This document shows positions 22,280 through 54,565 of a DNA stretch of 64,000 nt, piece after piece. Position 1 is the stretch's first letter; each line of letters begins with the position of its first letter. A model generated the notes under the pieces. That model ran no database searches, was not told the DNA's origin, and saw nothing but the letters and a program-made list of their open reading frames with translations. The stretch comes from Flagellimonas eckloniae (GTDB taxonomy: Bacteria > Bacteroidota > Bacteroidia > Flavobacteriales > Flavobacteriaceae). Position numbers and translations under genes: made by a program. The DNA lies in the NCBI RefSeq assembly GCF_001413955.1, contig NZ_LCTZ01000002.1, positions 2,962,501-3,026,500 of the forward strand, given 5' to 3'.

Positions 22280-22295
22280 TGGCACAAGAATGGCA
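22280..22295 (+). promoter_or_regulatory. Sigma-54 (-24/-12) promoter of the efflux cluster
   Basis: TGGCACAAGAATGGCA matches the consensus TGGCAC-N5-TTGCA at all but one of the conserved positions (TGGC in place of TTGC); the invariant GG (-24) and GC (-12) are correctly spaced. Transcription would begin near 22307, leaving a leader of about a dozen bases before the TolC gene. I saw no comparable element upstream of any other gene in the cluster. Confidence 0.75.
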
Positions 22296-22319
22296 AATAG
22301 TTTGGCACAGTAATAAATT

Positions 22320-27020: not shown

Positions 27021-29444
27021 ATGCTTAAAAATCATATCAAGGTCGCATTCAGATATTTAAAGAACCATTTATCTTTTACTATCATTAATGTATTAGGGCT
27101 TACTTTAGGGTTCTTTTGCTTTTTCCTTCTGAATGCCTATGTCTTGAGGGAAACTTCTTTTGATAAAGGCCAAGAAAATGTTTTTAGGTTGCTGCAAGAA
27201 ACAACAGATGAGAATGGTACTACACGAGAAATAGCACAATCTCCACCCAAAGTTGGTATAGAATCTAGACTTCTTTTTGATGAAATTGAAACCCAGACCC
27301 AAATACTATATTTGGGAAGAGCCAATGTTGGCAATAACCCACAAACAGTAAATCATCAACAAATTGCCGTATTGGATGATGATTTTTTAAATGTTTTTAG
27401 TTTCCCCCTCATAGAAGGTACTACCAATGGTCTAATAAATCATCCTAACGGTATTATTCTTACCCAAACAATAAAGGAAAACTACTTTGGAAAGCAATCG
27501 GCACTTGGTAAAATATTAAAGACCAGCTATGGTGATTATCCTGTGGTAGGAGTTTTAGAAGATTTTCCGGAAAATTCCCATTTAGAAAACTTAGTTTTCT
27601 TCAGCAGTCAAATGGCTTCGGAGGTGGTTAGTTGGTATACCGATTTTATGTCTGCAAATTGGACAAGAAACGAGCTTATAACATATCTTAAAGTTTCGCC
27701 TAGTGCAGATTTAGCTGCGCTGGGAGATAAAATCACCAAACTTGCACAAGAAAATCAACCAAAAGATATCCTTTACAATAGCAGCTTTGCTGTTCAATCT
27801 GTTCAGGACATTCACTTATATGAAAATGAAGTAGAGGGTGAAATGAATAAAGACAAGGGGAATGGATTCTATGTGAGTTTATTCTTTTGGGTAAGCATCC
27901 TTATTTTATTGGTGGCCTGTTTTAACTACGCAGGATTGTTGAACATTGCTTTTATAGACAGAGCAAAAGAAATAGGTTTAAGGCAAATTGTAGGGGCTGG
28001 GAAACTTAGCCTTCTAAAACAATTTTTGTCTGAAAGCCTATTGTTGATTTCGGTTTCCATCATATTGGCTTATACTCTGTTATGGTTGCTGCAGCCATTG
28101 GTTCAGATTTGGTTTAGCACAACCCTTAACTTACGGTCAATTCCTTTTAATGGGATTGTTATAATGGTGGCATCCGGTTTATTTCTTGGGCTCCTATCCG
28201 TGGCTTATCCGTTTTGGCTTATCATAAGATCAGGGGTGTCATCCTCTATAAAAAGTACAATATCCTTAAACTCCAAATTGCCTTTTAGAAGATTTATGCT
28301 CACGTTTCAGTTCATAGCTGTTATTGTATTTATTACCGCGTCTTTGGTCTTTAACAAGCAGATGGATTTTTTAAAAAACAGAGAGCTCGGGTTTAAAAAA
28401 GAAGGCTTGGCCACTGTGGATATAAACAGTAGAATTTTAAGAAATCAGTTTGAAGCTATTAAAACCGAATTTTCAAGAATTCCAGAAGTTCAGTCCGTTA
28501 GTGTTAGTTCAAGGGTTCCTGGAGAATGGAAAAACATACCAACGGTAAAGACGAAACGAAACGGTCAGTCCCTTGCAGAGGCAAAGGACATGTTGTTTAT
28601 GGGCGCCGACAAAGACTTTCTCAAGACCTTTAATATCAGATTATTGGATGGCACAAATTTTAAGGATGCTCCATCAGATAGCTCCAAAGTGTTTATTAAT
28701 CAAGCAGCCGTAATTGCATTAGGGTTGGAAAACCCCATAGGCGAAATGATCAGCATCCCGGCCGTTAACTATGGTGGAAGTAATCGGAACTTAAACCAAC
28801 CTTTTATTGCCCAAGTCGCAGGTGTTTTAGAAGATTTTCAAATTGAAGATTTTAGAACAAACATAAAGCCCCTAGTTATGGGCAACTGGAACAATCCAAT
28901 ACACTCCATTGATTATTACACATTGAAAATTAAAACATCAGACTGGTCAAAAACAATGATTGCACTTAAAAAAGTTAACGATTCTTTTGACCCTAAAACC
29001 CCCATAGAGTTTAATGTTTTGGATGACAAATTTGCCCGGTTTTTTGAACGTGATATGGAACATTTTAAACTACTTAATTTCTTTTCCATTATAGTGGTTT
29101 TACTTTCCTGTATGGGCCTTTTTGCAATGAGCGCATTTGTTGCAAAAAGTAGGACCAAGGAAATTGGGATTAGAAAAGTATTGGGCTCAAGTGTTTTACA
29201 ATTGCAATACCTCTTATCCAAGGATTTTGTGAGGTTGATGTTGGTAGGGCTACTTGTGGCAACTCCATTAACTTGGTATGCCTTGCAAACTTGGTTATCA
29301 GATTTTGCATATCACATAGATTTTAAATGGTGGATGGTAGCCATAGGTGGCTTTATTTGTTTTTCATTGACCATTGTAACTGTGAGTTTTCAATCTATAA
29401 AAGCCGCTGTTGCTAATCCAATAAAAAGTTTAAGAACCGAATGA
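27021..29444 (+). CDS. FtsX/MacB-type permease 1 of 11
   Basis: 807 residues. Membrane segments are predicted near 20-43, 285-305, 330-352, 370-392, 415-435, 682-703, 735-755 and 766-790. This is the most diverged copy in its first half: where the others have ACINFxNLSTA, it reads VACFNYAGLLNIAFIDRAKE with GLRQIVGA, and the usual SGSYPALxLSxFxP after the fourth segment is LSVAYPFWLIIRSGV. The second half is standard (SRTKEIGIRKVLGSSV). It starts three bases after the DUF2807 gene. It may have a specialised role or an altered contact with the ATPase, but it is full length and in frame. Confidence 0.93.
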   Translation: MLKNHIKVAFRYLKNHLSFTIINVLGLTLGFFCFFLLNAYVLRETSFDKGQENVFRLLQETTDENGTTREIAQSPPKVGIESRLLFDEIETQTQILYLGRANVGNNPQTVNHQQIAVLDDDFLNVFSFPLIEGTTNGLINHPNGIILTQTIKENYFGKQSALGKILKTSYGDYPVVGVLEDFPENSHLENLVFFSSQMASEVVSWYTDFMSANWTRNELITYLKVSPSADLAALGDKITKLAQENQPKDILYNSSFAVQSVQDIHLYENEVEGEMNKDKGNGFYVSLFFWVSILILLVACFNYAGLLNIAFIDRAKEIGLRQIVGAGKLSLLKQFLSESLLLISVSIILAYTLLWLLQPLVQIWFSTTLNLRSIPFNGIVIMVASGLFLGLLSVAYPFWLIIRSGVSSSIKSTISLNSKLPFRRFMLTFQFIAVIVFITASLVFNKQMDFLKNRELGFKKEGLATVDINSRILRNQFEAIKTEFSRIPEVQSVSVSSRVPGEWKNIPTVKTKRNGQSLAEAKDMLFMGADKDFLKTFNIRLLDGTNFKDAPSDSSKVFINQAAVIALGLENPIGEMISIPAVNYGGSNRNLNQPFIAQVAGVLEDFQIEDFRTNIKPLVMGNWNNPIHSIDYYTLKIKTSDWSKTMIALKKVNDSFDPKTPIEFNVLDDKFARFFERDMEHFKLLNFFSIIVVLLSCMGLFAMSAFVAKSRTKEIGIRKVLGSSVLQLQYLLSKDFVRLMLVGLLVATPLTWYALQTWLSDFAYHIDFKWWMVAIGGFICFSLTIVTVSFQSIKAAVANPIKSLRTE

Positions 29445-29459
29445 AAAATTAACTAGATC

Positions 29460-31844
29460 ATGCTTAGGAACTATATCAGAATTGCTTGGAGAAATTTATT
29501 AAAACGAAAAGTATTTACCGCTATTAACATTTTAGGGCTGGCTATTGGTTTTGGTAGCAGTATCCTAATCTATTTGTTTCTAAGCTATCATCTTTCCTTT
29601 GATGGATTCCATAACTATTCTGATAGAATCCACAGAATGGTTACCGAGGAGCACCGTGATTTAATTGATTATGAAGCCAGCGTTCCGCCGGCATTTGCAA
29701 AAACATTTCGCGAAGACTATGATTATGCGGATTATGTAGCAAAGATGGTGCAACAAGGTGGGTTGATCATGGATGTGGAAAGAAATGGTTCCACGGATAA
29801 ATTTAAAGAAGACATAGCCTTTGTTGAAGAAGATTTTTTTAAAATCTTCAATTTTCCTTTGCTTGATGGCAGCAACACCATATCACTTTCTGCACCTAAT
29901 ACCGCTGTAATAACGGAGACAGTTGCCAATAGAATGTATGGAAAAACTAATGTCATTGGCGAGACGTTTATTTTGCAAAATGATAAAATCATTGAAATTA
30001 CAGGGGTTTTAAAAGCATTACCAAAAACCACTTTTCTGGAAAATGAGGTTTTCATTTCCTTTAACAATCTTGAAGATTTTTTTGGATTTGCTGCCAATGA
30101 ATCTTGGGGTGGGATTACAAGTAATTTACAATGTTTTGCCTTGTTAAAACAAAACCAGAATGTTTCCCATATTGAGACCGCCCTTCTGGAGCTCCCCAAA
30201 GAGCACAGACCAGAAAGCAAGAATAAGCATGTCTATAAACTACAACCCTTGTCAGACATGCACTTTAATCCATTGTATGGCGGGTTAGACCCAATGCTTT
30301 TATGGGTCTTTGCCATAATCGGGTTATTCTTGATCACTATAGCATGTATAAATTTTATAAATATTTCTACGGCACAGGCTTTTTATCGTTCTAAGGAAAT
30401 AGGAATCCGTAAAGTGTTGGGAAGCTTTAAACAACATCTGTTTTGGCAGTTTCTGTCTGAAACCTTTGTCATTAGTTTGTTTGCCATTCTTTTGGGAGGT
30501 GCTTTGGCCCTAGTATTTTTGCCTTCCTTTAACGCCCTTTTTGAATTAAGATTATCTTGGAAAGACCTTTTAGACCTTAGATTCTTTGGGTTTTTATTTT
30601 TGATTCTGGCTCTGGTTTCATTGTTATCTGGAAGTTACCCAGGAATATTAATGTCCCGTATTGTTCCAGTACTAGCACTTAAAGGAAAACTTAGCCATAA
30701 TGATACGGGCGGAACAACCACAAGAAAAGTATTGGTGGTAGCGCAATTTGCCATCTCCATAACACTTATTGCAGCAACATTTATCATTTCCAGACAGATT
30801 GATTATGCAGTTTATACTGATTTAGGTTTTGATAAGGAATCAATGGTAATGGTTGAAGTTCCCTCCGACCTTGAACCAGTCCAATTTGAAAGCTTAAAAA
30901 ATAGATTGAGCCAAATTCCAGGCGTGCAAAATGTTTCTGCATGCTTGAGTAGTCCAGGTGCGGCTGAAAACAATTGGGGTACTAATGTAAAATACCATAC
31001 CAACCCAGAGGTTGAAGAGTTTAACATACAGGCTAAAATAGGTGATGAGAATTACCTAAACACTTTTGGCATCCCGCTTGTGGCAGGAAGAAACTTTTTT
31101 AAAAGTGATTCTATAACTGAAGTATTGGTAAATGAAGCCTTCGGAGAGAAGCTTGGAGTTTCCAAATCCGAAGATTTACTGGGGAAAAAGCTTTGGGCAA
31201 ATGGAGGCAGCGTTAATGCAACCATTGTTGGTGTGGTAAGCAATTTTCATGATTCTGATTTTACCGAGGAGATCAAGCCAGCCTTTATTGCTGCAAACAA
31301 TAATTGGTATAGTGAAATTGCTCTTAAAATCAATCATGCAAATACAAAATCAACATTGGACCAAATAGGGACAACATGGTCTGAAACTTTTACAGGATAT
31401 ATATTTGAATACCGTTTTCTAGACGAGCGCGTAGCGGAACTGTATGAAACCGAACAACGCTATTTATCACTTTCCAAAGTATTTTCTGGCCTTGCCATTT
31501 TAATAGGTTGTCTTGGTTTATACGGGTTAATCTTATTTTTTGTGGGCCAGCGCACTAAAGAAATTGGAATCCGTAAGGTCTTGGGAAGCAGCATAATCCA
31601 CATTTTGACTTTATTTACAACAGACTTTTTTAAACTTATTCTTGTTGCAGGTGCATTGGCTACCCCAATAGCGTGGTATTTAATGGAGCAATGGCTTCAA
31701 GGATATACTTACCGTGTAGAAATTCATTGGTGGATGTTTGCCTTGGCCATTGTTTCAATTATGGCCATAACCCTGATAACAATAAGTTATCAAACTTTAA
31801 AGGTAGCCATAGCAAACCCTATAGAAAGCTTAAGAACCGAATAA
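29460..31844 (+). CDS. FtsX/MacB-type permease 2 of 11
   Basis: 794 residues. The first coupling motif reads ACINFINISTAQAFYRSKEI followed by GIRKVLGS, the second QRTKEIGIRKVLGSSIIHIL, both intact. The first periplasmic domain (about 45-280) begins SFDGFHNYSDRIHRMVTEEH; the second (about 430-670) contains NFHDSDFTEEIKPAFIAANN. The tail is NPIESLRTE. It follows permease 1 by 15 bases, and its initiation region (GATCATGCTTAGGAACTATATC) resembles that of permease 3, pointing to common descent of these junctions. Sequence gives no substrate. Confidence 0.93.
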   Translation: MLRNYIRIAWRNLLKRKVFTAINILGLAIGFGSSILIYLFLSYHLSFDGFHNYSDRIHRMVTEEHRDLIDYEASVPPAFAKTFREDYDYADYVAKMVQQGGLIMDVERNGSTDKFKEDIAFVEEDFFKIFNFPLLDGSNTISLSAPNTAVITETVANRMYGKTNVIGETFILQNDKIIEITGVLKALPKTTFLENEVFISFNNLEDFFGFAANESWGGITSNLQCFALLKQNQNVSHIETALLELPKEHRPESKNKHVYKLQPLSDMHFNPLYGGLDPMLLWVFAIIGLFLITIACINFINISTAQAFYRSKEIGIRKVLGSFKQHLFWQFLSETFVISLFAILLGGALALVFLPSFNALFELRLSWKDLLDLRFFGFLFLILALVSLLSGSYPGILMSRIVPVLALKGKLSHNDTGGTTTRKVLVVAQFAISITLIAATFIISRQIDYAVYTDLGFDKESMVMVEVPSDLEPVQFESLKNRLSQIPGVQNVSACLSSPGAAENNWGTNVKYHTNPEVEEFNIQAKIGDENYLNTFGIPLVAGRNFFKSDSITEVLVNEAFGEKLGVSKSEDLLGKKLWANGGSVNATIVGVVSNFHDSDFTEEIKPAFIAANNNWYSEIALKINHANTKSTLDQIGTTWSETFTGYIFEYRFLDERVAELYETEQRYLSLSKVFSGLAILIGCLGLYGLILFFVGQRTKEIGIRKVLGSSIIHILTLFTTDFFKLILVAGALATPIAWYLMEQWLQGYTYRVEIHWWMFALAIVSIMAITLITISYQTLKVAIANPIESLRTE

Positions 31845-31858
31845 AAAATTAGCTGATC

Positions 31859-34258
31859 ATGTTTAAGAATTATCTAAAAATCGCTTGGCGGAACATTGTA
31901 AAAAACAAAGTTTATTCTATAATCAACATCGGTGGACTCGCCATAGGTTTAAGCTGCTTCTTACTCATTACTCTTTATATAATCAAAGAGCTCTCCTATG
32001 ATAGCTATCATGAAAAAGGAGATCAGATTTATAGGGTATTGCACCACAGCAGTTCGGAAGATACCTCAAGTGCTTGGGTTTGGGGCAATGCTCCTGTGGG
32101 TCCTGCATTAAAAGCCGATTTTCCAGAAATACTTGAAAAAGTCCAGTTTTCTGGCCAGTCAGCCATTTTATTAAAATATGGGGAGAATGCTTTTCAAGAG
32201 AACGATTGCTTTTATGCGGATGCGGCGGCTTTTGACGTATTCAGTTGGCCTTTGATTTCAGGTGACCCAGCAATGGCTTTGGAAGCACCATATTCCATAG
32301 TACTTACTGAAACTACTGCTAAGAAATACTTTGGTGACCAAGACCCTTTGGGAAAGGTAATTGAAGGCGTTGGCGGACGGGCCAGCGATGGCAATTATAC
32401 GGTCACGGGTGTGATGAAAGATATTCCCGAAAATTCACATTTTTCGTTTGATTTACTTATGTCAATGGGCAGTTTTTACCAATCGCGCCCAGCTATTTTT
32501 GATTGGTGGGGTTACGTCGATTTCTATACGTACCTATTGGTGTCCGAAAATTTTGATGAAAAAGTATTCAACTCAAAAATCCCTTCTTTTTTGGAGAAAC
32601 ATATCGAGGAAACTTCCGATGAGGACTTCTACAATATTTCATTGGAGTCCCTTGGTAATATATACTTGCATTCCGAGGCGGATCGCCAGCCTGGGATTAT
32701 AGGAAGTCTTTCCAACATTTACATTTTTGCTATTATCGGGCTTTTTATTTTGATCATCGCATGCATCAATTTCATGAACCTTTCTACTGCAAGGTCATTG
32801 GAAAGAGCTAAAGAAGTTGGTGTAAGAAAAGTAATAGGGGCAAATAGAAAGGGGCTTATTTATCAATTTTTCGGAGAATCATTGGTCTTGGTTTTATTGT
32901 CTTCTGTATTTGGTTTATTATTAGTTTTCTTGGCTTTACCTTGGATGTCAAACCTAACAGGATTACGTTTTTATGCCCATGATGTAATCGAAATACAATT
33001 GCTACTGTTCTTTTTTGGGACCGCGATACTTACAGCTTTTTTATCAGGCAGTTACCCCGCGCTTATCTTATCAGGGTTTAAGCCGGTAAGTATTTTAAGG
33101 GGCACCTTTAGAAAATCACCTCAAGGAGCCAATTTAAGAAAAGGACTGGTCATTTTTCAGTTTAGCCTTTCCATAGCCTTGATTGCAAGCACCATAATTG
33201 TATACGATCAATTGGGGTATTTATTCAATAAGGATATGGGCTTTGATAAAGAGCAACAGTTGGTACTTGATTTTAACTGGGATCAAGATGTAATCTCGAA
33301 TATGGAGACCATAAAGAGTGAGTTCAAAGCAATGCCCAATGTTACTTCAGTTTCCATGTCAAGAACCGTTCCTGGAAGTCACTTCCCCGCAGCAGGGACT
33401 ACTGTGGAAATAGCTTCTGGAGAAATGAAAACTTTCAGTCCTTATATATACGAGGTTGACAATGATTTCATACCACATTATAATATAGAAATGGTTGCGG
33501 GCAGGGCCTTTTCACGAGACTTTCCTACGGATAGTATTGGTTCTTTGGTCATCAATGAAGCAGCAGTAAAAGCTTTTGGGTATTCTGAACCTAATGAGAT
33601 TATTGGCAAAAAATTTGATCAATGGGGAAGACAAGGTACTATTATTGGTGTGGCCAAAGATTTTAATTACTTGTCCCTACATGAAGAGATAGCTCCCTTG
33701 ACATTGAGACAGGTGCCCTACGGACAGTATTTTTCATTAAAACTTAGCTCCAATGACTATTATGCCACTGTTTCAAAAATTCGTCAAAAATGGGCTGACC
33801 TAGTACCTCATCGACCATTTTTATACAGCTTTTTGGATACGTCCTTTAATGAACAATATCAGGCAGATATTAGATTTAGAAAACTCTTTACCATTTTTTC
33901 ATTTCTCACCATATTCATTGCCTGTCTAGGACTTTTTGGCTTAGTTACCTATAGTGCACTGCAACGAACCAAGGAAATTGGTATTCGAAAAGTATTGGGG
34001 GCTGAAGTAACCAATATCATTGCTTTAATATCCAAAGATTTTATCAAACTGGTTGGAGTGGCTCTTATTGTTGCCATCCCTTTTTCTTGGTTTGCTATGG
34101 ATCAATGGCTTAATGATTTTGCCTACCGAATTGAAATACAATGGTGGGTCTTTGTACTTGCCGGAATGTTGGCCTTGTTCATTACTTTTTTCACAATCAG
34201 CTTTCAAGCCATAAAAGCGGCCCTTGTCAACCCTATAAAAAGTTTACGTACAGAATGA
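31859..34258 (+). CDS. FtsX/MacB-type permease 3 of 11
   Basis: 799 residues with two intact coupling motifs (ACINFMNLSTARSLERAKEV then GVRKVIGA; QRTKEIGIRKVLGAEVTNII). The first periplasmic domain opens with SYDSYHEKGDQIYRVLHHSS and contains WGNAPVGPALKADFPEI, the form most often annotated as MacB_PCD. The second holds VAKDFNYLSLHEEIAPLTL. Its first codons share a 23-base identical stretch (31871-31893) with permease 11. The gap to permease 4 is 47 bases, the longest in the array. Confidence 0.94.
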   Translation: MFKNYLKIAWRNIVKNKVYSIINIGGLAIGLSCFLLITLYIIKELSYDSYHEKGDQIYRVLHHSSSEDTSSAWVWGNAPVGPALKADFPEILEKVQFSGQSAILLKYGENAFQENDCFYADAAAFDVFSWPLISGDPAMALEAPYSIVLTETTAKKYFGDQDPLGKVIEGVGGRASDGNYTVTGVMKDIPENSHFSFDLLMSMGSFYQSRPAIFDWWGYVDFYTYLLVSENFDEKVFNSKIPSFLEKHIEETSDEDFYNISLESLGNIYLHSEADRQPGIIGSLSNIYIFAIIGLFILIIACINFMNLSTARSLERAKEVGVRKVIGANRKGLIYQFFGESLVLVLLSSVFGLLLVFLALPWMSNLTGLRFYAHDVIEIQLLLFFFGTAILTAFLSGSYPALILSGFKPVSILRGTFRKSPQGANLRKGLVIFQFSLSIALIASTIIVYDQLGYLFNKDMGFDKEQQLVLDFNWDQDVISNMETIKSEFKAMPNVTSVSMSRTVPGSHFPAAGTTVEIASGEMKTFSPYIYEVDNDFIPHYNIEMVAGRAFSRDFPTDSIGSLVINEAAVKAFGYSEPNEIIGKKFDQWGRQGTIIGVAKDFNYLSLHEEIAPLTLRQVPYGQYFSLKLSSNDYYATVSKIRQKWADLVPHRPFLYSFLDTSFNEQYQADIRFRKLFTIFSFLTIFIACLGLFGLVTYSALQRTKEIGIRKVLGAEVTNIIALISKDFIKLVGVALIVAIPFSWFAMDQWLNDFAYRIEIQWWVFVLAGMLALFITFFTISFQAIKAALVNPIKSLRTE

Positions 34259-34305
34259 AGATAAACTCATGTTGAACTTATTTCAGCATCAAAAAACGAA
34301 GTATC

Positions 34306-36741: not shown

Positions 36742-36762
36742 TCATATCAAAAAAACAAAATC

Positions 36763-39162: not shown

Positions 39163-39163
39163 G

Positions 39164-39213
39164 TCATCAATCAAAAACAAGGAACTATGTTTAAAAATCA
39201 ATTGAAAATTGCT
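39164..39213 (+). repeat. 50-bp perfect repeat at the permease 5/6 junction (copy A)
   Basis: Bases 39164-39213 are identical to 44117-44166 at the permease 7/8 junction. The block covers nearly the full spacer and the first nine codons of permease 6 (MFKNQLKIA). Identity ends abruptly inside the coding region (GTTAGAA against TGGAGAA). Confidence 0.88.
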
Positions 39214-41661: not shown

Positions 41662-41670
41662 GAACATGTT

Positions 41671-44115: not shown

Positions 44116-44116
44116 A

Positions 44117-44166
44117 TCATCAATCAAAAACAAGGAACTATGTTTAAAAATCAATTGAAAATTGCT
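44117..44166 (+). repeat. 50-bp perfect repeat at the permease 7/8 junction (copy B)
   Basis: Identical to 39164-39213. It includes the word CATCAATCAAAAAC (44118-44131) that also occurs twice in front of the DUF2807 gene. About 5 kb, two permease genes, separate the two 50-base copies, so recombination between them would delete or add exactly two genes in frame. Confidence 0.88.
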
Positions 44167-46569
44167 TGGAGAAGCATTAAAAAACAGCCTTTTTTAAATG
44201 CCCTTAATACGTTTGGTTTGGCTATTGGTATAGCAGGGACACTTTTGATCTGCCTCTATATTTATGATGAGTTAAGCTATGATAAGATGTTTGCCGATGC
44301 TGAAAGAATTCATAGAATCAATGTGGATATGAAGTTTGGGGGGCCGGACAGACAAGTATCTCAAGTTTCGGGACCCATGGCGGAAGCGGTGTTGAATGAT
44401 ATTCCCCAAGTTGAAAGTGCCGTAAGGTTTAGGCCCTGGGGAACATCCTCTTTAAACAAAACAACCGAAACAAATTTGGTTTTGGAAGACAGAACAGCCT
44501 TTGCGGATAGCACACTGATAACCGTGTTTGGTTTGAATATGATCTATGGAAATCCAAACAAAGCACTTACGGAACCAAATACATTGATTCTTACCAAAAC
44601 GGCTGCCGAGAAACACTTTCCTATAATAAATGCCATTGGGCAAAAATTGATTCTGAATGAAGGAAACACCTACACCATAACTGGAATCATTGAAGATCTG
44701 CCCAACAACTCTTTTTTGGCAGATTATTCAGTGTTTATGTCAATGGCGAGCCATGTAGACAACTATATTAACTGGGGAAGCCATAATTACAATACCTTCA
44801 TAAAATTAAAGCAAAACACAACGGCTAGCGATATTGCCGAACCTTTGGCAGGCATGATGGAACGTTATTTAATGCCCTATGCCCAACAGTTTTTTCCTGG
44901 AATTACCAAGGAGCAGTTTGAAGCTTCCGGCAATTATGTCAACTATTCCACGATTCCATTGACGGATATGCATTTGTATTCCCACAGAGAGCAGGATATG
45001 GGGGTAAACGGAGATATCAACAATATTTATATCCTGGGGTGCATCGCACTTTTCCTGATTCTACTGGCCAGTATCAACTACATGAACCTGTCTACAGCAT
45101 ATTCATTAAAAAGGGCTAAAGAGGTAGGCATTCGAAAGACATTGGGGTCGAACAAAAATTCGTTGGTAAAACAGTTTTTGACCGAATCGGGCTTGATCAC
45201 TTTTGGGGCCATGCTCATCGCAATAGTATTGGCCATAATTGCTTTGCCCTTCTTCAATCAGTTGGGCGATAAATCAATCAGTGTCCCACTTTCCAATCCT
45301 TTTTTTTGGATGGTCTTGATTTTGTCAGCTGCCTTGTTGGCTCTTTTATCAGGTAGTTATCCTGCCTTTTTTATGTCAAAGTTTAAACCTGTTAAAGTGT
45401 TGAAGGGCGGGGGTGAGAACAGCACTGGTGGCTCAAAACTTAGAAAAGCACTGGTTATTTTTCAATTTGCCGTCTCGGTCTTTTTGATTGTTGGGACTTT
45501 GGTAGTATCCAATCAATTGCAGTTTATGCAAAACAAAGATCTTGGCTATAGTAAAGATCAAGTGTTGCTGGTAAACAATATGAATAGATTGAATGACCAA
45601 GTGGACTCTTTTAAAGAGGAGGTTATGCAATTGGCACAAGTTTCAAGCGCCTCCCTTAGCGCTTATGTTCCCACGCCTTCATATAGAAGTGATTCCTCCT
45701 ATTTCTTGGAAGATAAATTGGAACAAGAATCAGCAATCAACATGCAAGGGTGGCAGGTCGATTTTGATTATATGGAAACTTTAGACCTGACTCTTTTGTC
45801 GGGGAGGACTTTTGATTCAAATATCACTACAGACTCCACGGCTGTGATTATTAATGAATCTGCTTTAAAAGTGACCGGACTTGATCAAAAGGCTGTATTG
45901 GGAAAACGTATTTTCAATGGTATAGGAGAAGATGATATTTCTGAGTTCACGGTGATCGGGGTAGTTAAGAATTTTCATTTTGAAACCATGCGTCACGAGG
46001 TTCGCCCACTTTCATTGCAAATAGGAAGAAGCACGGGGAACCTGATTGTAAAACTTAAATCGGGCAATTTCACAAATACCATTTCACAAATACAACAATT
46101 GTGGGACACTAGGTCACCAAGCTTGCCATTTGACTATCAATTTATGGACGAGTCTTTCAACGAGGTCTATGAAAACGAAAGACGATTGGGAGATATTTTC
46201 ATCATATTTACGTCGCTTTCTATTTTTATTGCCTGTCTAGGACTCTTTGGATTGGCTGCATTTAATGCCCAGAAACGAATTAAGGAAATAGGGGTTAGAA
46301 AAGTGTTGGGGGCCACAATCGGTCAAATAACCTATAGATTATCGTTTGACTTTTTAAAACTGGTATTTATCGCCATTACTATTGCATTGCCGGTGGGTTG
46401 GTTCGCTATGAACAAATGGCTCGAAGATTTCTCCTATAGAGTAGAGATAAAATGGTGGGTTCTGGTATCAGCAGCAGTCTTGGCTATTTTAATTTCACTA
46501 CTTACTGTAAGTTATCAGAGCATAAAGGCGGCCATTGTAAATCCAGTGAAAAGTCTTAAAACGGAATAG
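44140..46569 (+). CDS. FtsX/MacB-type permease 8 of 11
   Basis: 809 residues. It begins MFKNQLKIAWRSIKKQPFLN, sharing nine codons with permease 6. Coupling motifs are ASINYMNLSTAYSLKRAKEV with GIRKTLGS, and AQKRIKEIGVRKVLGATIGQ. The first periplasmic domain contains VDMKFGGPDRQVSQVSGPMA; the second, VVKNFHFETMRHEVRPLSLQ. The tail is NPVKSLKTE. Outside the shared start it is clearly different from permease 6, so only the junction was copied or converted. Permease 9 follows after 31 bases. Confidence 0.94.
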   Translation: MFKNQLKIAWRSIKKQPFLNALNTFGLAIGIAGTLLICLYIYDELSYDKMFADAERIHRINVDMKFGGPDRQVSQVSGPMAEAVLNDIPQVESAVRFRPWGTSSLNKTTETNLVLEDRTAFADSTLITVFGLNMIYGNPNKALTEPNTLILTKTAAEKHFPIINAIGQKLILNEGNTYTITGIIEDLPNNSFLADYSVFMSMASHVDNYINWGSHNYNTFIKLKQNTTASDIAEPLAGMMERYLMPYAQQFFPGITKEQFEASGNYVNYSTIPLTDMHLYSHREQDMGVNGDINNIYILGCIALFLILLASINYMNLSTAYSLKRAKEVGIRKTLGSNKNSLVKQFLTESGLITFGAMLIAIVLAIIALPFFNQLGDKSISVPLSNPFFWMVLILSAALLALLSGSYPAFFMSKFKPVKVLKGGGENSTGGSKLRKALVIFQFAVSVFLIVGTLVVSNQLQFMQNKDLGYSKDQVLLVNNMNRLNDQVDSFKEEVMQLAQVSSASLSAYVPTPSYRSDSSYFLEDKLEQESAINMQGWQVDFDYMETLDLTLLSGRTFDSNITTDSTAVIINESALKVTGLDQKAVLGKRIFNGIGEDDISEFTVIGVVKNFHFETMRHEVRPLSLQIGRSTGNLIVKLKSGNFTNTISQIQQLWDTRSPSLPFDYQFMDESFNEVYENERRLGDIFIIFTSLSIFIACLGLFGLAAFNAQKRIKEIGVRKVLGATIGQITYRLSFDFLKLVFIAITIALPVGWFAMNKWLEDFSYRVEIKWWVLVSAAVLAILISLLTVSYQSIKAAIVNPVKSLKTE

Positions 46570-46600
46570 TCAATTATTATCTAATTAAAGAATCATCATC

Positions 46601-49015
46601 ATGGTAAAGAATCATTTTAGAACAGCCTGGAGAAGCCTCCTAAAGAATAAAATATTTGCCGGTTTAAACATTATTGGGCTGTCAGTTGCTTTTGCTATTG
46701 CCATTCTGCTATCCATGGCCGGTTTTTTTGACCTATCGTATGATAAGTTCCATACCAACTCCAAAGATATTTATAAGGTGTACTCCATGTGGCAGAATCC
46801 CAAAGGCTCCCAAGTAAGCGTAAGCCATTCTGTACCGTTAATGCCCACTATCATGGGTGAAGTACCGGGGATAAAAAAAGCCACCCGCCATTTACAGCAA
46901 GAAGCCGTACTTACGTATGGGGAAAAAGAAATTAATATGGATGCCATTTGGGTGGATGCCGATTTCTTTACGATGTTCACCTTTCCCGCTATTAAGGGAA
47001 AAATGGATAATCCCTTGGAAAAGCAGTCGGACATCGTCATTACGGAAAAAACGGCAAAAATGTTGTTCGGAGATGAAGAGGCCATAGGCAAAACAGTGCA
47101 AATTCTAATCAATGGAAAAGACCATCCTTTTACTGTAGGAACTGTGGTCGAGAACAATCCATCACAGAGTACACTGGATTTTGAAGTTGCTGTACGGTTT
47201 GAAAAAGAAGCACATTATTTAGAAAATAAAGATGAATGGGGCGCGAGGTATCACGATATATATGTGCAATTGGTTAAAGACGTTGCTCCAAGCCAATTTG
47301 ATGTGGCAACACGTTCACTGGTGAATCACAATTTTAAAGAACGAATCGATAATGCTAAGCGAGATGGCGCCCAGCCTGATGCGGACGGCCTTTTCTATAA
47401 GTTTGAACTTTTGCCATTCTTGGATGAAAATTTTACGACTTTCCGAAATGGATATGTAGAAGTCAGCCGTAGCAATACCTATTTGGTGTTGGGCGTTGCT
47501 TTTTTGATTCTTTTTATAGCCTGTGTCAACTTTGTTAATATGAGCATTGCCAGAAGTGGAGAACGCCTAAAAGAGATAGGTATGCGAAAAACACTTGGGG
47601 CAAAACGCAAACAACTATTTTTTCAGTTTTGGACAGAAAGTTTACTTGTTTTCTTTTTCTCCATAAGTATCGGCCTGCTCATAAGCATGTTGTTGATTGA
47701 TGATTTTAAAACCATTTTTAGGACTGATGTCTCCTTTGGATTGATTTTATCACCGGTTATAATCTTACTTTTTCTGTTGAGCATACTCATGATAACCTTA
47801 ATTGTAGGAGGGTATCCTGCATTGCTTTTGAGTAAACTGGGCACTATTCAATCTTTAAAAGGAAAACTAGATGTCTCCGGTAAAAATAGGGTTCGGGATG
47901 CCTTAATGGTTTTACAGTTTGGGATAGCCATTTTAATGATAACGGGAACATTGGTACTGCATAGTCAGTTAGATTTTATGCGCAACAAAGATCTTGGTTT
48001 TAATAAAGAGCAAGTACTCTCTTTTCCATTGGATGGAAAAAAGAATAGCTATGACGCTTTGGAACTAATGCGCAACGAATTGGCGGGCAATCCGGATATT
48101 TTGGAAATATCTGGAGCCGATAATAATTTGGGCTACGGGAAAGATGGTAGTGTTTCCAGTAGTATGTTCGGTTTTGAATACAAGAACAGGGTAATCAATA
48201 CCAACTATCTCACGGTTGATTATGATTATGTGGAAACCTTGGATTTGAAACTCGTAGCAGGCAGGAACTTTAGTAGGGAATTTGAAAGTGATAGGTCAGG
48301 AGCAGTGATCAACGAAGCCATGGCAAAAGAGTTTGGGGAAAAAGACCCATTAACGGCATATATTAGCTTTAGTGATTCATTGCGTTTTCCGGTAATAGGG
48401 GTGGTCAAAGATTACCACTTCGAAAACTTGGATAAGACCATAGCACCTATTACCATGATGATGAGCCGTGATGATGATCTTTATTATGCCTATGTGAAAG
48501 TAGCACCGGCTAATCTGGCAAAATCCTATGAAGCTATTAAAAATGCGTGGGCACGGGTCTCGCCCAACTCAAAATTCCTAGGTTCATTTTTAGATGAGAA
48601 TATTGACCGGACCTTTAGAAAAGAAAAGCGAATGACCACTATGATTACCAGTGGTGCCGTTCTGGCAATTGCGTTGAGTTGTATTGGTCTGTTTGCTATT
48701 TCGTTACTAATTGTAAATCAGCGCACCAAGGAGATAGGGGTTAGAAAAGTAATAGGCGCAAGCGTATCGAACATTACTTTTTTATTGACCAAGGATTTCT
48801 TGAAATTAGTTGGAATATCATTTTTGATTGCTTCGCCAATAGCATGGTGGTTTATGAAAGAATGGTTAAAGAATTATCCGTTTAAAATTGACCTTAGTCC
48901 CTTGTTTTTTGTCACGGCGGGCTTGCTGGCCGGCATTATTGCTTTATTTACGGTTGGCAGCAGAACTATTAGGGCGGCAAAGCAAAACCCAATAAAGAGT
49001 CTGAGAACAGAGTAA
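46601..49015 (+). CDS. FtsX/MacB-type permease 9 of 11
   Basis: 804 residues. Coupling motifs are ACVNFVNMSIARSGERLKEI with GMRKTLGA, and NQRTKEIGVRKVIGASVSNI. It departs from the array in its periplasmic parts: the first domain has VYSMWQNPKGSQVSVSHSVP and a long central insertion with LVNHNFKERIDNAKRDGAQP (about 240-265), and the second is short on aromatic residues. The usual SGSYPAL is IVGGYPALLLSKLG. The tail is QNPIKSLRTE. It is preceded by ATCATCATC directly at the start codon. Confidence 0.93.
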   Translation: MVKNHFRTAWRSLLKNKIFAGLNIIGLSVAFAIAILLSMAGFFDLSYDKFHTNSKDIYKVYSMWQNPKGSQVSVSHSVPLMPTIMGEVPGIKKATRHLQQEAVLTYGEKEINMDAIWVDADFFTMFTFPAIKGKMDNPLEKQSDIVITEKTAKMLFGDEEAIGKTVQILINGKDHPFTVGTVVENNPSQSTLDFEVAVRFEKEAHYLENKDEWGARYHDIYVQLVKDVAPSQFDVATRSLVNHNFKERIDNAKRDGAQPDADGLFYKFELLPFLDENFTTFRNGYVEVSRSNTYLVLGVAFLILFIACVNFVNMSIARSGERLKEIGMRKTLGAKRKQLFFQFWTESLLVFFFSISIGLLISMLLIDDFKTIFRTDVSFGLILSPVIILLFLLSILMITLIVGGYPALLLSKLGTIQSLKGKLDVSGKNRVRDALMVLQFGIAILMITGTLVLHSQLDFMRNKDLGFNKEQVLSFPLDGKKNSYDALELMRNELAGNPDILEISGADNNLGYGKDGSVSSSMFGFEYKNRVINTNYLTVDYDYVETLDLKLVAGRNFSREFESDRSGAVINEAMAKEFGEKDPLTAYISFSDSLRFPVIGVVKDYHFENLDKTIAPITMMMSRDDDLYYAYVKVAPANLAKSYEAIKNAWARVSPNSKFLGSFLDENIDRTFRKEKRMTTMITSGAVLAIALSCIGLFAISLLIVNQRTKEIGVRKVIGASVSNITFLLTKDFLKLVGISFLIASPIAWWFMKEWLKNYPFKIDLSPLFFVTAGLLAGIIALFTVGSRTIRAAKQNPIKSLRTE

Positions 49016-49026
49016 AAATCAACATC

Positions 49027-51453
49027 ATGTATAAGCTTTTTTTTAAGATTGCCACCAGATTTCTATTGAAGAACAAACTATATTCCTTTATCAATATTTT
49101 TGGTTTGGCCATTGGCGTGGCATCTTTTGTATTGATTATGCTGTATGTAAATTATGAACGTAGCTATGATAAGTTTGAGGGCTCAGAAAATGTTTATAGA
49201 CCTTACATGGATTATTTGGAGGGAGACACATTTGCCCCTGGTGATGCCATGACCTATAACCTTTCGGGACCAACCTTAAAAGAGAAGTTTCCAGAGGTGC
49301 TGGATTACGTTCGGTTCTATTATTTTGAAAAGCTAACTTTTAAAGTTGGTGACAGAATATTGGAACAACCCTTGGGGTCATTATCTGACGCATCCTATTT
49401 TGATATTTTCAATTATCCCCTATTGAAAGGGAATAAAGAGGTAGTTCTTGCAGAACCTTATTCTATTGTCCTTTCAAAATCATTTGCGAAAAAGCTTTTT
49501 GGTAATGAAGATCCTTTGCAAAAAACGATTTCTGCCTTTCGAGATGGTCGTGAAGCGGTATTAACCGTCACTGGCGTAATGGAAGACGTTCCCAAAACGG
49601 CTCATTATAGAAATTCTTTTTTAATTTCTTACGAGACGGAGAAAACATGGACAGATTGGGGTCCAAGTGCTCATGAGCTCAACTGGAATATGAATAATTA
49701 TTATACCTATATTAAGGTAGCTCCAAATACTAATGCTGCACTTCTGCGTCAAAAAATAATTGATAGTGATATTGAAGAAGACACAGAAGAACGTCACAAT
49801 ATTGAGGCTATTGAAAGTATTCATTTATATTCTAACAAGCCTTACGAAGTATCAGCAAATGGTAGCGTTACACGCATAAAGTTTTTGTCGGCTATAGCAT
49901 TTATTATTCTTATTCTTTCTTGGTTAAATTATGTAAACCTTTCTACAACAAAATCTATGGAGAGGGCAAAGGAGGCAGGAATACGAAAAGTTGCTGGAGC
50001 AAAAAAATCGCAATTAATTATCCAATCTTTAGTAGAGTCGGTTTTGCTCAATTTTATTGCCATGGCAATAGCCCTGACTATAGTTTTAATTTTGTTGCCC
50101 ATTTATAATAATATTACGGGTACAGACCTTAGCCTTACTTTAAAAAGTCTTTTCGGTTTCTTGCCCTATTTCGCTTTCATTCTTTTAGGCATTATAGTAG
50201 CAGGCCTTTACCCTGCACTTTTATTGAGTAGCTACTCGCCTGCCAAGGCACTAAAAGGAAAAATCAGAACCTCAACCCAAGGACTTACTATTAGAAAAGG
50301 ACTTATTGTCACACAATTTTTAGCTACTATAGTTTTATTGGTTGGCACCTTGGTAGTCACTAAGCAAATCAACTTTTTAGAAAGCCAGCCAATAGGAGCT
50401 GATATTAATCAAACTATTGCATTACGCGGCGAAGTAGTTACAAGTGAAGCAGATTCTTTGGTTGTAAATGATTTTAAGGTTTTAAAGGAAGAACTTAAGA
50501 CTTTACCTTTTGTAAACAAGACAGCAATTGCACAAACCTATCCTGGTGATAGTTTTGATAATCTTTCATCAACAAGAGGAATTAAATTGGCAGATGGACG
50601 AAGAGTAGATGATAAAATATTTTATAGCTATCACGCGCAGCCAAATTATTTTGACTTGATAGGATTTGAATTCTTGGCTGGAGGTACCTTTCTTCCATCA
50701 TCAGATTGGGAAGGCAATCAAGTTGTGGTCAATGAAACTTTCTTAAAGACTATGGGTATTTCATCTCCTGAAGAAATTATGAATAAAACTATTAGCTTCT
50801 GGGGGAACAATGATTGGAGGGTTTCAGGGGTGATTAAAGATTACTATCATTTTGGATTAAAAAGTCCCATGTTGCCCATAGTTATTCGTTATCAAAAAGA
50901 AGTAAGCAACCTTTTGGTAAAACTAGATTCTTCCGTTACCTCTACCGCTGGGTTTGGTTCAGCAATCAGTCAGATTGAAACTAGATGGAAAAAAGTGTTC
51001 CCACAGAGTACCTTCAACTATGCGTTTTTAGACCAAAAGTTCGAAGCCCAATATGAACAGGATAAGGCATTTAAATCAGCCTTTCAAATCTTTACTTTGC
51101 TTGCTATAATTATTGCATCAATGGGTCTTTTTGGGCTTACATCATACACTGTAGTGCAGCGAAAAAAAGAAATAGGAATACGAAAGGTAAATGGTGCTAG
51201 CATTACCCAGGTACTGACCCTATTGAACAAAGATTTTGTGAAATGGGTTGGCTTGGCATTTATTGCGGCGGTTCCCATCTCTTGGTACGCAATGAACCAA
51301 TGGCTGGAAGGCTTTACGTATAGAACAACACTCAGCTGGTGGATTTTTGCACTTGCCGGGGCCTCTGCATTGATCATTGCCCTATTCACAGTAAGTTGGC
51401 AAAGTTTTAAAGCGGCAATAGCCAACCCCGTGGAAAGTTTACGAACGGAATAA
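49027..51453 (+). CDS. FtsX/MacB-type permease 10 of 11
   Basis: 808 residues. The first coupling region reads ILSWLNYVNLSTTKSMERAK then AGIRKVAGA, lacking the ACINF Cys, and the second is QRKKEIGIRKVNGASITQVL, with Asn in place of the usual Leu. It starts MYKLFFKIATRFLLKNKLYS rather than with KIAWRN. The first periplasmic domain has FAPGDAMTYNLSGPTLKEKF; the second, IKDYYHFGLKSPMLPIVIRY. The tail is NPVESLRTE. Like permeases 1 and 4 it departs at motif positions but is otherwise complete. Confidence 0.93.
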   Translation: MYKLFFKIATRFLLKNKLYSFINIFGLAIGVASFVLIMLYVNYERSYDKFEGSENVYRPYMDYLEGDTFAPGDAMTYNLSGPTLKEKFPEVLDYVRFYYFEKLTFKVGDRILEQPLGSLSDASYFDIFNYPLLKGNKEVVLAEPYSIVLSKSFAKKLFGNEDPLQKTISAFRDGREAVLTVTGVMEDVPKTAHYRNSFLISYETEKTWTDWGPSAHELNWNMNNYYTYIKVAPNTNAALLRQKIIDSDIEEDTEERHNIEAIESIHLYSNKPYEVSANGSVTRIKFLSAIAFIILILSWLNYVNLSTTKSMERAKEAGIRKVAGAKKSQLIIQSLVESVLLNFIAMAIALTIVLILLPIYNNITGTDLSLTLKSLFGFLPYFAFILLGIIVAGLYPALLLSSYSPAKALKGKIRTSTQGLTIRKGLIVTQFLATIVLLVGTLVVTKQINFLESQPIGADINQTIALRGEVVTSEADSLVVNDFKVLKEELKTLPFVNKTAIAQTYPGDSFDNLSSTRGIKLADGRRVDDKIFYSYHAQPNYFDLIGFEFLAGGTFLPSSDWEGNQVVVNETFLKTMGISSPEEIMNKTISFWGNNDWRVSGVIKDYYHFGLKSPMLPIVIRYQKEVSNLLVKLDSSVTSTAGFGSAISQIETRWKKVFPQSTFNYAFLDQKFEAQYEQDKAFKSAFQIFTLLAIIIASMGLFGLTSYTVVQRKKEIGIRKVNGASITQVLTLLNKDFVKWVGLAFIAAVPISWYAMNQWLEGFTYRTTLSWWIFALAGASALIIALFTVSWQSFKAAIANPVESLRTE

Positions 51454-51463
51454 AACAAAAATT

Positions 51464-53827
51464 ATGTTTAGAAACTATCTAAAAATCGCTTGGCGGAATC
51501 TAGCTCGAAACAAGAGTTTTTCACTACTTAATATTTTAGGCCTTTCCATTGGTTTGGCAGTGACCGCCCTTATTCTACTGTGGATCAATTTTGAACTTGG
51601 GTTTAATCAGTTTCACGAAAAGAAAGACCGTATTTATGAAGTATACAATAAGTACGAGATAGATGGTGAAATTTGGACATGGAATTCCACCCCAAAAATA
51701 ATGGCGGCAACAATAAAAAAGGATTATCCAGAGGTCGAAGCTGTTTCTAGATTTTTTTATGACAATACATTTCTCTTTTCCAAAAATGAAAAACGAATAA
51801 AATCTACGGGTACCATGGTGGATCCCGATTTTTTGAAGATGTTCAGTTTTCCTCTTGTGGAGGGAGACATTGAAACTGTTCTTGAAGATGTAAATTCTGT
51901 GGTCATCACCGAAGACTTTGCAAAAAAAATGTTTGGTAATGAGCCTGCCGTGGGAAAAATAGTTAAGGTAGACAATACAGATAGTTTTAAGGTTACGGGC
52001 ATTTTAAAAAATCTACCCCAAAATAGCGAATTCAATTTTGAATTTTTGATGCCTTGGAAGTATGTTAAGCAAAAGGGTTGGGATGATGAAAATTGGAGCA
52101 ACAATTCCGTTGCCACCTATGTATTGTTAAAAGAAGGCGTTAATTATACTGTATTTTCCAACAAAATCAAACCGTTACGAAAGTCTTATGATAAGGGCGC
52201 GCCAGATATGATAACCTTTCTTTATCCATACAATAGGTCACACCTGTATTCAGAATTTGATAACGGAGAGGAGATAGGTGGTCTTATTGATTTAATTCGA
52301 TTGTTTGGTATCATAGCAATTATAGTGTTAGTAATAGCATGTATCAACTTTATGAACTTGAGTACCGCCCGAAGCGAAAAAAGAGCTAAAGAGGTAGGTG
52401 TAAGAAAAGCGGTAGGCGCACAAAAAGGGGCTCTTATAAGTCAGTTTTTAGGGGAATCCATTTTAATTTCTTTTTTGTCCGCCTTGTTGGCATTGGCAAT
52501 CGTTTTAATAGTACTTCCCTCTTTTTCCGAACAAGTAGTAGGCAGAGAGCTTACTATAGAATGGGCCAATCCATGGTTTTGGATTGCAGCAATAAGCATA
52601 ATACTTATTACAGGGATTTTAGCGGGAAGTTATCCAGCCCTGTACCTATCCGCATTCAGACCGTCATCAGTTTTAAAGGGAACTTTCAATAAGAAAAATA
52701 CATTAATAACTCCAAGAAAAGTCTTGGTCATAGCACAATTTTCAATTGCAATTATATTGATTATAAGCACTTTAGTGGTTAAAAAACAAATCGGCATCGT
52801 TCAAGACCGTCAGTTGGGCTACAATAAAAACAACTTAGTCTATATTCAAATGGAAGGTGATATTGAAAAAAACTATGACCTTATTAAATCAGAGTTACTG
52901 GATTTAGGTGTTGCTTCCTCCATTTCAAAAACAAATTCTCCCATTACTGAAAGTTGGAGCAATTCGTGGAACGTTGGCTGGAAAGGAAAGGATGAAGAGA
53001 ACAAAACATTGGTGCATCGATTGGTAGCAGATGAGGCCGTGGTCAAGACCATGGGGTTGCAACTTGTTGAGGGCCGAGATTTTGATTTGAAAAAATATGC
53101 CACAGATTCAACCGCAGCAATACTCAACGAATCTGCAGTGTCGCTTATGGAACTAAAAAATCCGATAGGACAAACAATTAGAGACAATGGCACTGACTGG
53201 CATATTGTGGGTGTAGTAAAGGATTTTGTATTTAATTCCCCCTTTCAAAAGATAGAACCAATGGTCATTGAAGGGGCTAGGGCTTGGTTCAATGTTATAC
53301 ATATTAAATTTAACCTTGAAAGGAATATGTCTGATAATCTGGCTTTTACCAAAACCATTTTTAATAAGTACAACCCTGAATATCCGTTTAATTATGAATT
53401 TGTTGACGCCGATTATGCAGAAAAATTTGTTACTGAAGAACGGACCGAAAAACTAGCCAGTCTATTCAGTTTATTGACCATTTTGATTTCTTGTCTTGGA
53501 TTATTTGGATTGGCCAGCTATATGGCCGAAAATAGAATAAAGGAAATAGGTGTTCGGAAAGTATTAGGGGCCTCAGTAAGTGGGATTACTACATTACTTT
53601 CCAAGGATTTTTTAAAGCTGGTTCTAATTTCAATTGTGATAGCAATTCCTATTTCATGGTATGCAATGAACCAATGGCTTGAAGAATTTGATTTTAGGAT
53701 TGCCATTTCTTGGCAGATTTTTGCCCTCGCAGGCCTTCTTGCAATGGCAATTGCATTTCTAACTGTGAGTTATCAAGCAATCAAGGCGGCAAAATCTAAC
53801 CCAGTAAAAAGTTTGCGAACAGAATAA
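51464..53827 (+). CDS. FtsX/MacB-type permease 11 of 11
   Basis: 787 residues, the shortest copy, and closest in pattern to permease 5. Coupling motifs are ACINFMNLSTARSEKRAKEV with GVRKAVGA, and ENRIKEIGVRKVLGASVSGI. The first membrane segment continues into LLWINFELGFNQFHEKKDRI. The second periplasmic domain carries SPITESWSNSWNVGWKGKDE. Its start shares 23 identical bases (51476-51498) with permease 3, eight genes upstream. It lies ten bases before the second ATPase gene and may be that ATPase's main partner. Confidence 0.94.
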   Translation: MFRNYLKIAWRNLARNKSFSLLNILGLSIGLAVTALILLWINFELGFNQFHEKKDRIYEVYNKYEIDGEIWTWNSTPKIMAATIKKDYPEVEAVSRFFYDNTFLFSKNEKRIKSTGTMVDPDFLKMFSFPLVEGDIETVLEDVNSVVITEDFAKKMFGNEPAVGKIVKVDNTDSFKVTGILKNLPQNSEFNFEFLMPWKYVKQKGWDDENWSNNSVATYVLLKEGVNYTVFSNKIKPLRKSYDKGAPDMITFLYPYNRSHLYSEFDNGEEIGGLIDLIRLFGIIAIIVLVIACINFMNLSTARSEKRAKEVGVRKAVGAQKGALISQFLGESILISFLSALLALAIVLIVLPSFSEQVVGRELTIEWANPWFWIAAISIILITGILAGSYPALYLSAFRPSSVLKGTFNKKNTLITPRKVLVIAQFSIAIILIISTLVVKKQIGIVQDRQLGYNKNNLVYIQMEGDIEKNYDLIKSELLDLGVASSISKTNSPITESWSNSWNVGWKGKDEENKTLVHRLVADEAVVKTMGLQLVEGRDFDLKKYATDSTAAILNESAVSLMELKNPIGQTIRDNGTDWHIVGVVKDFVFNSPFQKIEPMVIEGARAWFNVIHIKFNLERNMSDNLAFTKTIFNKYNPEYPFNYEFVDADYAEKFVTEERTEKLASLFSLLTILISCLGLFGLASYMAENRIKEIGVRKVLGASVSGITTLLSKDFLKLVLISIVIAIPISWYAMNQWLEEFDFRIAISWQIFALAGLLAMAIAFLTVSYQAIKAAKSNPVKSLRTE

Positions 53828-54500: not shown

Positions 54501-54565
54501 AAATGATGCACCTATCTGCCTTGTGTATGATTTATGCCTTTTTGGTTATGCACAATAGAAAAACT

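Follow-up and report, generated by a model that had tools for sequence, protein, structure and literature searches.

An ATPase-bracketed array of eleven single-chain MacB/FtsX-type permeases in Flagellimonas eckloniae and its candidate shared export engine

What can eleven consecutive permease genes be for, if one outer membrane channel, one periplasmic adaptor and two ATPases are encoded around them? The question is posed by a stretch of 64,000 nt of Flagellimonas eckloniae (contig NZ_LCTZ01000002.1, positions 2,962,501 to 3,026,500), here called the window, to which all positions refer unless another contig is named. Between 27021 and 53827 the listing of open reading frames (ORFs) gives eleven complete permease genes on the + strand, P01 to P11, which encode in order 807, 794, 799, 811, 799, 824, 814, 809, 804, 808, and 787 aa and are separated by 15, 14, 47, 21, 24, 9, 24, 31, 11, and 10 bp. 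A first-pass annotation of this DNA had described such a run (787-824 aa, gaps of 9-47 bp) with one TolC, one adaptor and two ATPases around it, and had taken the permeases for interchangeable modules served by these partners. The ORF listing and the domain matches, which give one OEP/TolC, one adaptor and two distinct ATPases, bear out the layout. We propose, with a probability of about 0.6, that the locus encodes a tripartite exporter of the type VII ATP-binding cassette (ABC) class, in which a shared and probably heterodimeric ATPase pair, one adaptor and TolC drive many interchangeable single-chain permeases. The components are the following (TM, transmembrane segments; NBD, nucleotide-binding domain; dN/dS, nonsynonymous to synonymous rate ratio).

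22320..23660, + strand, TolC-family outer membrane factor (PF02321 OEP, 144.2 bits, cut-off 22)
23669..24919, + strand, periplasmic adaptor, HlyD/RND-MFP, DarC-like (HlyD_3; TIGR01730 145.8 bits, cut-off 94.9)
25495..26190, + strand, ABC1 (ATPase 1), canonical NBD (ABC_tran; DarD-like, 299.4 bits, below the cut-off of 375; TGNLDS D-loop)
27021..29444, + strand, permease P01, duplicated MacB_PCD/FtsX (2 + 2 Pfam domains; 8 TM)
29460..31844, + strand, permease P02 (2 MacB_PCD; 8 TM)
31859..34258, + strand, permease P03 (2 MacB_PCD; 8 TM)
34306..36741, + strand, permease P04 (2 MacB_PCD; 8 TM)
36763..39162, + strand, permease P05, core type (tree group in 26 of 28 arrays; dN/dS 0.010; fold match YbbP)
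39187..41661, + strand, permease P06, not in the near-identical genome G020 (2 + 2 Pfam domains; best relative 42%)
41671..44115, + strand, permease P07, not in the near-identical genome G020 (best relative 61%)
44140..46569, + strand, permease P08, core type (tree group in 27 of 28 arrays)
46601..49015, + strand, permease P09 (2 MacB_PCD; 8 TM)
49027..51453, + strand, permease P10 (2 MacB_PCD; 7 TM above the hydropathy threshold)
51464..53827, + strand, permease P11 (2 + 2 Pfam domains; 8 TM)
53838..54500, + strand, ABC2 (ATPase 2), NBD with non-Asp D-loop and the signature Arg lost (ABC_tran; TGNLNS and LSGGQQQLV)

Domain content, topology and, for P05, the predicted fold show each permease to be a fused single-chain pseudo-dimer that contains both TM halves and two periplasmic domains. 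MacB_PCD was matched 27 times in the genome and 22 of these matches, two per chain, fall in the array, which identifies the window permeases as duplicated permeases; the remaining five are single-domain proteins of 416-433 aa located elsewhere. A separate cluster of four single-domain MacB_PCD permeases of 416-433 aa lies at C2:2123915-2130307. PF12704 was above its cut-off in all eleven chains and PF02687 in the three that were scanned with Pfam (P01, P06, and P11). The combination of a MacB_PCD core with an FtsX TM block is that of the type VII ABC (MacB/FtsX) class, and its doubling within one chain is the pseudo-dimeric fold of the YbbAP type. The first-pass annotation had instead considered homodimers or mixed dimers of half-size permeases, and in MacB itself two half units, each with its NBD in the same chain, form a homodimer (PMC5985334, accessible text). 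We give this model almost no credence, given the two PCDs in each chain, the 8 hydropathic TM in 10 of the 11, the two FtsX blocks per chain in the three scanned permeases and the predicted fold of P05, whose best match is YbbP along the whole P05 length: both type VII TM halves are in each chain and therefore permease homodimers or mixed dimers are not needed. The likeness to YbbP stops at the two extra linking helices that give it 10 TM (PMC12646458, accessible text), which were not found in the P05 model, where helix 376-402 is followed by helix 422-453.

The KEIGIRK-type motif that had been noticed in all eleven permeases is present twice per chain, with small departures (KEIGLRQ in P01 half 1, MEIGIRK in P07 half 1, KEAGIRK in P10 half 1, and KEISIRM in P04 half 2). 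Among 251 permease chains, both the coupling Glu and the coupling Arg of half 2 were found in 251, while in half 1 the Glu was found in 240 and the Arg in 205. The wide divergence claimed for the periplasmic domains was confirmed: mean pairwise identity within the window was 23% and 26% for these two domains, 37% for TM block 1 and 49% for TM block 2.

ABC1 and ABC2 make up a pair of ATPases that is both conserved and asymmetric. The centre of the NBD interface is occupied by the D-loops, and in heterodimeric exporters differences between D-loops matter, as stated in the accessible part of PMC7756269. All 29 ABC1 rows (27 from arrays and two from G036, which belongs to another family of the same order) kept the Asp of the D-loop and the Arg of the signature, and ABC2 had TGNLNS and LSGGQQQLV in 28 of 28 array rows. 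Outside the family, D and R were present in 11 of 11 ABC1 rows, while ABC2 had N, H or Q in place of the Asp and L, I or V in place of the Arg in 13 of 13 readable rows, a 184-aa fragment in G295 having been left out because its motif was unreadable. In both proteins Walker A, Walker B, the LSGGQ core, and the H-loop are intact. The mean identity to the window over 15 genomes of the same genus was 95.0% for ABC1 and 94.5% for ABC2, and 77.1% in the same genomes for a control ABC ATPase encoded at 17539. Judging from these sequences, ABC1 and ABC2 probably form one shared, heterodimeric engine; to our knowledge, no heterodimeric NBD pair has been proposed before among type VII ABC systems.

The distribution of both ATPases was then compared over 198 Bacteroidota genomes, taking as ABC2 orthologues the matches with at least 60% identity and as ABC1 orthologues those with E ≤1e-80 and at least 59% identity. 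ABC2 was found in 40 genomes and ABC1 in 54; comparing the listings by eye, 40 genomes had both, 14 ABC1 only, none ABC2 only, and 144 neither (Fisher P ~2e-30, ancestry not removed). The loci were read in 13 of the 40 genomes with both, all outside the family. Permeases lie between ABC1 and ABC2 in seven of them (10 in G258, 8 in G362 and in G257, 7 in G188, 4 in G314, 3 in G272, and 2 in G215), the ATPase genes adjoin each other in G221 and G233 and are separated by 591 bp in G295, and permeases are beside them in G221 and G295. One permease is beside ABC2 in G304, where ABC1 is on a different contig, and in the loci read no permease adjoins the ATPases in G266 and G233, nor ABC2 in G361.

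These data bear on a second explanation, that two engines coexist, ABC1 homodimers for one set of permeases and ABC2 homodimers for another, the common locus reflecting common regulation only. The catalytic motifs retained by both proteins, the homodimeric NBD of the related LolCDE and the 14 genomes in which ABC1 alone accompanies 1-3 duplicated permeases would all suit it. It is nevertheless doubtful, considering that ABC2 never occurs without ABC1 (40 of 40), that their genes adjoin in G221 and G233, and that ABC2 has its two interface changes in every readable row; moreover, no split into two coupling classes is visible, because most chains have two recognisable coupling sites (the Glu of half 1 in 240 and that of half 2 in 251 of the 251).

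The duplicated permeases were counted as matches to the duplicated-permease model at E 1e-48. The 14 genomes with ABC1 only, with all candidates scored, had 1-3 matches each, one of the two in G313 being a 428-aa half. For 25 of the 40 genomes with both ATPases the counts ranged from 2 to at least 29: G215 had 2, G272, G369, and G203 had 3 each, the window genome had 11, and twenty others had 4 to at least 29, seven of these twenty counts being lower bounds with 29 candidates scored. The difference between both groups gave a Mann-Whitney P of 7e-7 with no correction for ancestry. Of the 144 genomes without either ATPase, for each of which only 4 candidates were scored, 133 had no match and 11 had one or two. 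G361 has a single orthologue of each ATPase, the two being ~294 kb apart; its 30 matches with long open frames are dispersed over the genome, and three of them follow ABC1. At the 17 places where the other 27 are located, no ORF of at least 90 aa resembling ABC1 or ABC2 (E 1e-5) was found within at least ~4.5 kb on each side, and a motif scan around the 27 gave just one ORF, of 1178 aa, which matches neither; most G361 permeases are therefore orphans without a local motor. Several of the scattered permeases of this genome (L215-L233) have a 60-90 aa N-terminal extension (~860-900 aa in total) that is not on the window permeases and that we presume to be reminiscent of the so-called permease prefix domains.

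How common is the array itself? A search with TIGR03434, the model of the acidobacterial duplicated orphan permease (ADOP), over 39 genomes (own plus 38 relatives) gave matches at E 0.001 in 36, as well as in 13 of 14 controls. At 4e-89 or better it matched 22 of the 23 other genomes of the genus, the exception being G007 (83% complete, best match 3e-35). We read 28 arrays: that of the window, those of 18 of these 23 genomes, and those of nine other genera of Flavobacteriaceae. The latter come from a family sample of 149 genomes, 36 with ABC2 and 25 with an adaptor match; they have ABC2 and the adaptor on one contig, and they are not a random choice, the longest and some of the shortest spans having been included on purpose. 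The arrays, one of which (G012) is broken by a contig end, contain 4-27 permeases with a median of 8, each on one strand throughout, with ABC1 on the side of the adaptor and ABC2 at the opposite end. The 11 permeases of G099 include one between the adaptor and ABC1 and one beyond ABC2, broken by the end of the stretch. Neighbouring permeases were separated by at most 60 bp in 189 of 218 gaps and by more in 29, a count that takes in a few permeases outside the 28 arrays. The skeleton that recurs in Bacteroidota is a kinase and a sigma54 regulator, TolC, adaptor, ABC1, permeases, and ABC2. The arrangement was present in 19 of 19 genomes of the genus with the array read, window included, and in other Bacteroidota classes, so the rarity that the first-pass annotation had implied was mistaken. 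The length of 11 is ordinary, in the upper part of the range and no record, because arrays span 4-27. A fixed number of permeases per locus, which that annotation had named as evidence to the contrary, was not found, because the number varies between loci. Its overall interpretation is thus partly supported, as regards the interchangeable modules, but not as regards the dimers and the rarity.

The composition of the arrays varies as well. A tree of the 251 permeases was cut at four depths. One cut gave 83 groups, of which 48 were singletons, and the remaining three gave 102, 74, and 51. The P08 type occurs in 27 of the 28 arrays and the P05 type in 26, the nearest P05 relative of G119 (66%) being outside the group cut; every other group is in 12 genomes at most, and some are common to several genera. 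P05 and P08 are thus the core types, and the others are cassettes that are gained, lost or replaced. By comparison with the very close relative G020, P06 and P07 are in the window only, while G020 alone has two other permeases between P08 and P09. For the nine permeases in common, dN/dS ranged from 0.010 (P05) to 0.113 (P11), that is, they are under purifying selection; dS varied between genes from 0.10 to 0.37, a hint of recombination. One clear event of interior replacement was found. The DNA of G002 and G013 is 85% identical through the upstream genes and the first 38 nt of the first permease gene. In the interior, identity is mostly 30-60% per 30 codons, and it rises to 81% in a 363-bp stretch that starts near codon 692 and runs slightly past the gene end. 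Identity being high at the ends and low inside, the interior was swapped between conserved ends. In the window, P06 and P08 share ~50 identical bp that span the intergenic gap and the start of the gene (39164-39213 and 44117-44166), and identical stretches are shared by the 3' ends of P05 and P06 and of P06 and P07, possible traces of recent recombination.

Tandem amplification into redundant copies, with no functional diversification, would also produce a strongly variable number of permeases and cassettes that come and go. We regard it as most improbable, since the periplasmic domains average 23-26% identity in the window, 11 of 11 ORFs are intact, dN/dS is low in 9 of 9 permeases in common with G020, and some groups span genera.

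Upstream, the genes of a two-component system are divergent from tolC, and two short elements lie in the intergenic region.

19402..20754, - strand, HK, histidine kinase (HATPase_c, PAS; 2 N-terminal TM; syntenic in relatives)
20754..22118, - strand, RR54, NtrC-type response regulator, sigma54-interacting (Response_reg, Sigma54_activat, and HTH_8)
22280..22308, + strand, paired TGGCAC elements with a 23-bp spacing, upstream of TolC, putative promoter elements

The elements start at 22280 and 22303, and the second alone fits the stricter pattern TTGGCA[CT]. They resemble what we take to be the -24 element of sigma54 promoters; one of the two may be such an element, in agreement with the divergent gene of a sigma54 activator. 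Of 26 RR54-TolC intergenic regions, 23 contained the stricter pattern and 19 had two or more copies of it, with a spacing of exactly 23 bp in 17 of these 19; two copies at any spacing were found in 32 of 5200 control windows. The paired elements are kept upstream of tolC in most of the genus. Promoter-like and terminator-like sites were near chance level. The close packing of the genes and the conserved promoter-like elements are consistent with one transcription unit, and a single long transcript from tolC is likely. Another conceivable function is that the permeases are not transporters but mechanotransmission or sensing units, of the BceAB detoxification and sensing type, that pass periplasmic signals to the neighbouring kinase. 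This is unlikely, given that TolC and the adaptor belong to the same conserved block and that a single kinase would face up to 27 permeases.

Returning to export by a shared engine, the mechanism could be as follows. Any permease would supply both TM halves and two periplasmic domains in one chain, and ABC1 and ABC2, probably a heterodimer in which one D-loop is canonical and the other altered, would dock under whichever permease is present through two coupling helices. The substrate would be picked up in the periplasm, with the divergent periplasmic domains determining which one, and expelled through TolC; gene order and co-conservation point to the single adaptor and TolC as the exit path for all permeases. 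Expression of one long operon from tolC would be controlled by the sigma54-dependent two-component system, as suggested by the divergent RR54, the promoter-like elements and the gaps of 9-47 bp. As a default guess, by analogy with MacAB, BceAB, and YbbAP, the substrates might be antimicrobial or envelope-derived hydrophobic or peptide compounds. The window array would represent a consolidated form, because in some other Bacteroidota the same ATPases coexist with scattered orphan permeases.

Several observations weigh against this proposal. The case for a heterodimer is built on co-occurrence, adjacency in a few genomes, and motif asymmetry, and common descent confounds the comparisons of co-occurrence and of permease number. 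The basic machine can do without ABC2, because ABC1 occurs without it in 14 genomes. In G361 a long distance separates the two genes, and in G304 they do not share a contig. The orphan permeases might be powered by other ABC ATPases, with genes elsewhere. The coupling Glu of half 1 is missing in 11 of the 251 chains, and G099 lacks both core permease types, besides its permease between adaptor and ABC1. As to regulation, the sigma54-like site varies in its -12 part, and the 29 gaps above 60 bp in relatives tell against one transcript.

Among known systems, the best fold match is YbbAP of E. coli, a type VII ABC system in which, as in the window, a single chain forms both TM halves and the NBD is separate. 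YbbAP is not known to have a TolC or adaptor, and it has one permease. It binds two copies of one NBD (PMC12646458, accessible text). With MacAB-TolC the locus has in common TolC and the adaptor, which are encoded alongside, the MacB-like periplasmic core, and the FtsX-type TM fold; however, MacAB-TolC has one permease, and instead of an NBD fused to a 4-TM half the window has separate NBD genes and 8-TM permeases. The duplicated PCD-FtsX architecture is the same as that of ADOP, although P01, P06, and P11 score 222, 320, and 297 bits with TIGR03434, under its cut-off of 622.3, which was exceeded in 0 of the 198 phylum genomes; unlike ADOP, the window has an ATPase pair, an adaptor, and TolC attached. 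The darobactin exporter DarBCD provides the best-scoring NCBIfam models for the window adaptor and ATPases, and the duplicated permeases can be aligned with the DarB model as well, all of them under the equivalog cut-offs (DarB 113-143 of 700 bits, DarC 194 of 450, DarD 299 for ABC1 and 249 for ABC2 of 375). DarBCD has one permease and one ATPase. Energy-coupling factor (ECF) transporters are importers, and their EcfT and S-components have another fold; those of group II are the nearest analogue in logic only, not relatives. In the accessible part of PMC7755397, one common group II ECF module joins different membrane S-components. ECF modules have two ATPases. More tentatively, and at slightly less than an even chance, the locus would be the exporter counterpart of group II ECF in Bacteroidota, with one asymmetric ABC1/ABC2 heterodimer and one adaptor energising up to ~30 exchangeable single-chain permeases, arrayed or scattered.

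Three optional accessory genes complete the locus.

24933..25463, + strand, rep176, secreted 176-aa protein with internal repeats (homologues; BLAST in arrays)
26253..27017, + strand, DUF2807 (GIN domain) secreted protein (PF10988 115.9 bits)
54503..56080, + strand, beta-lactamase-fold serine hydrolase (PF00144 172 bits; not at the same spot in G020)

The library scans of rep176 gave no Pfam or NCBIfam match, and BLAST found it in 4 of the 28 arrays. It has about three repeats around LGFDTxxYLPxGFxPY and 366 homologues, which measure 176-300 aa among the 120 matches listed and, where the source is named closely among them, belong to Flavobacteriaceae; further relatives are encoded in its own genome at C2:3606419-3607815. 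The hydrolase reached no NCBIfam cut-off among the 25 matches listed, and relatives of 26-29% identity lie between the last permease and ABC2 in five arrays (G002, G013, G016, G019, and G022). Accessory secreted proteins, too, may travel as cassettes, because DUF2807 genes sit between permease genes in some arrays (L070-L072 in G021, L170-L173 in G051, L174-L176 in G123, and L201-L202 in G257).

Duplicated permeases in large numbers are known already: two Dyadobacter genomes have 28 and 33 orphan copies (PMC11573002), and a metagenome-assembled genome of acidobacterial origin has 102 (PMC10564751), with no motor assigned to them in the accessible parts of both papers. The array bracketed by an ATPase pair is, within type VII ABC exporters, apparently a new form, as none of this kind was found described among the open-licence papers listed, several of the lists being capped, which is not proof of absence. 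If the proposal is correct, it would provide a motor for many of these orphan permeases, reported with no function, at least in Bacteroidota, explain duplicated permeases without ATPases of their own, and extend the type VII ABC class by an architecture in which an asymmetric ATPase pair is the shared engine. The turnover of cassettes would then be a natural series with which to map substrate specificity onto the periplasmic domains.
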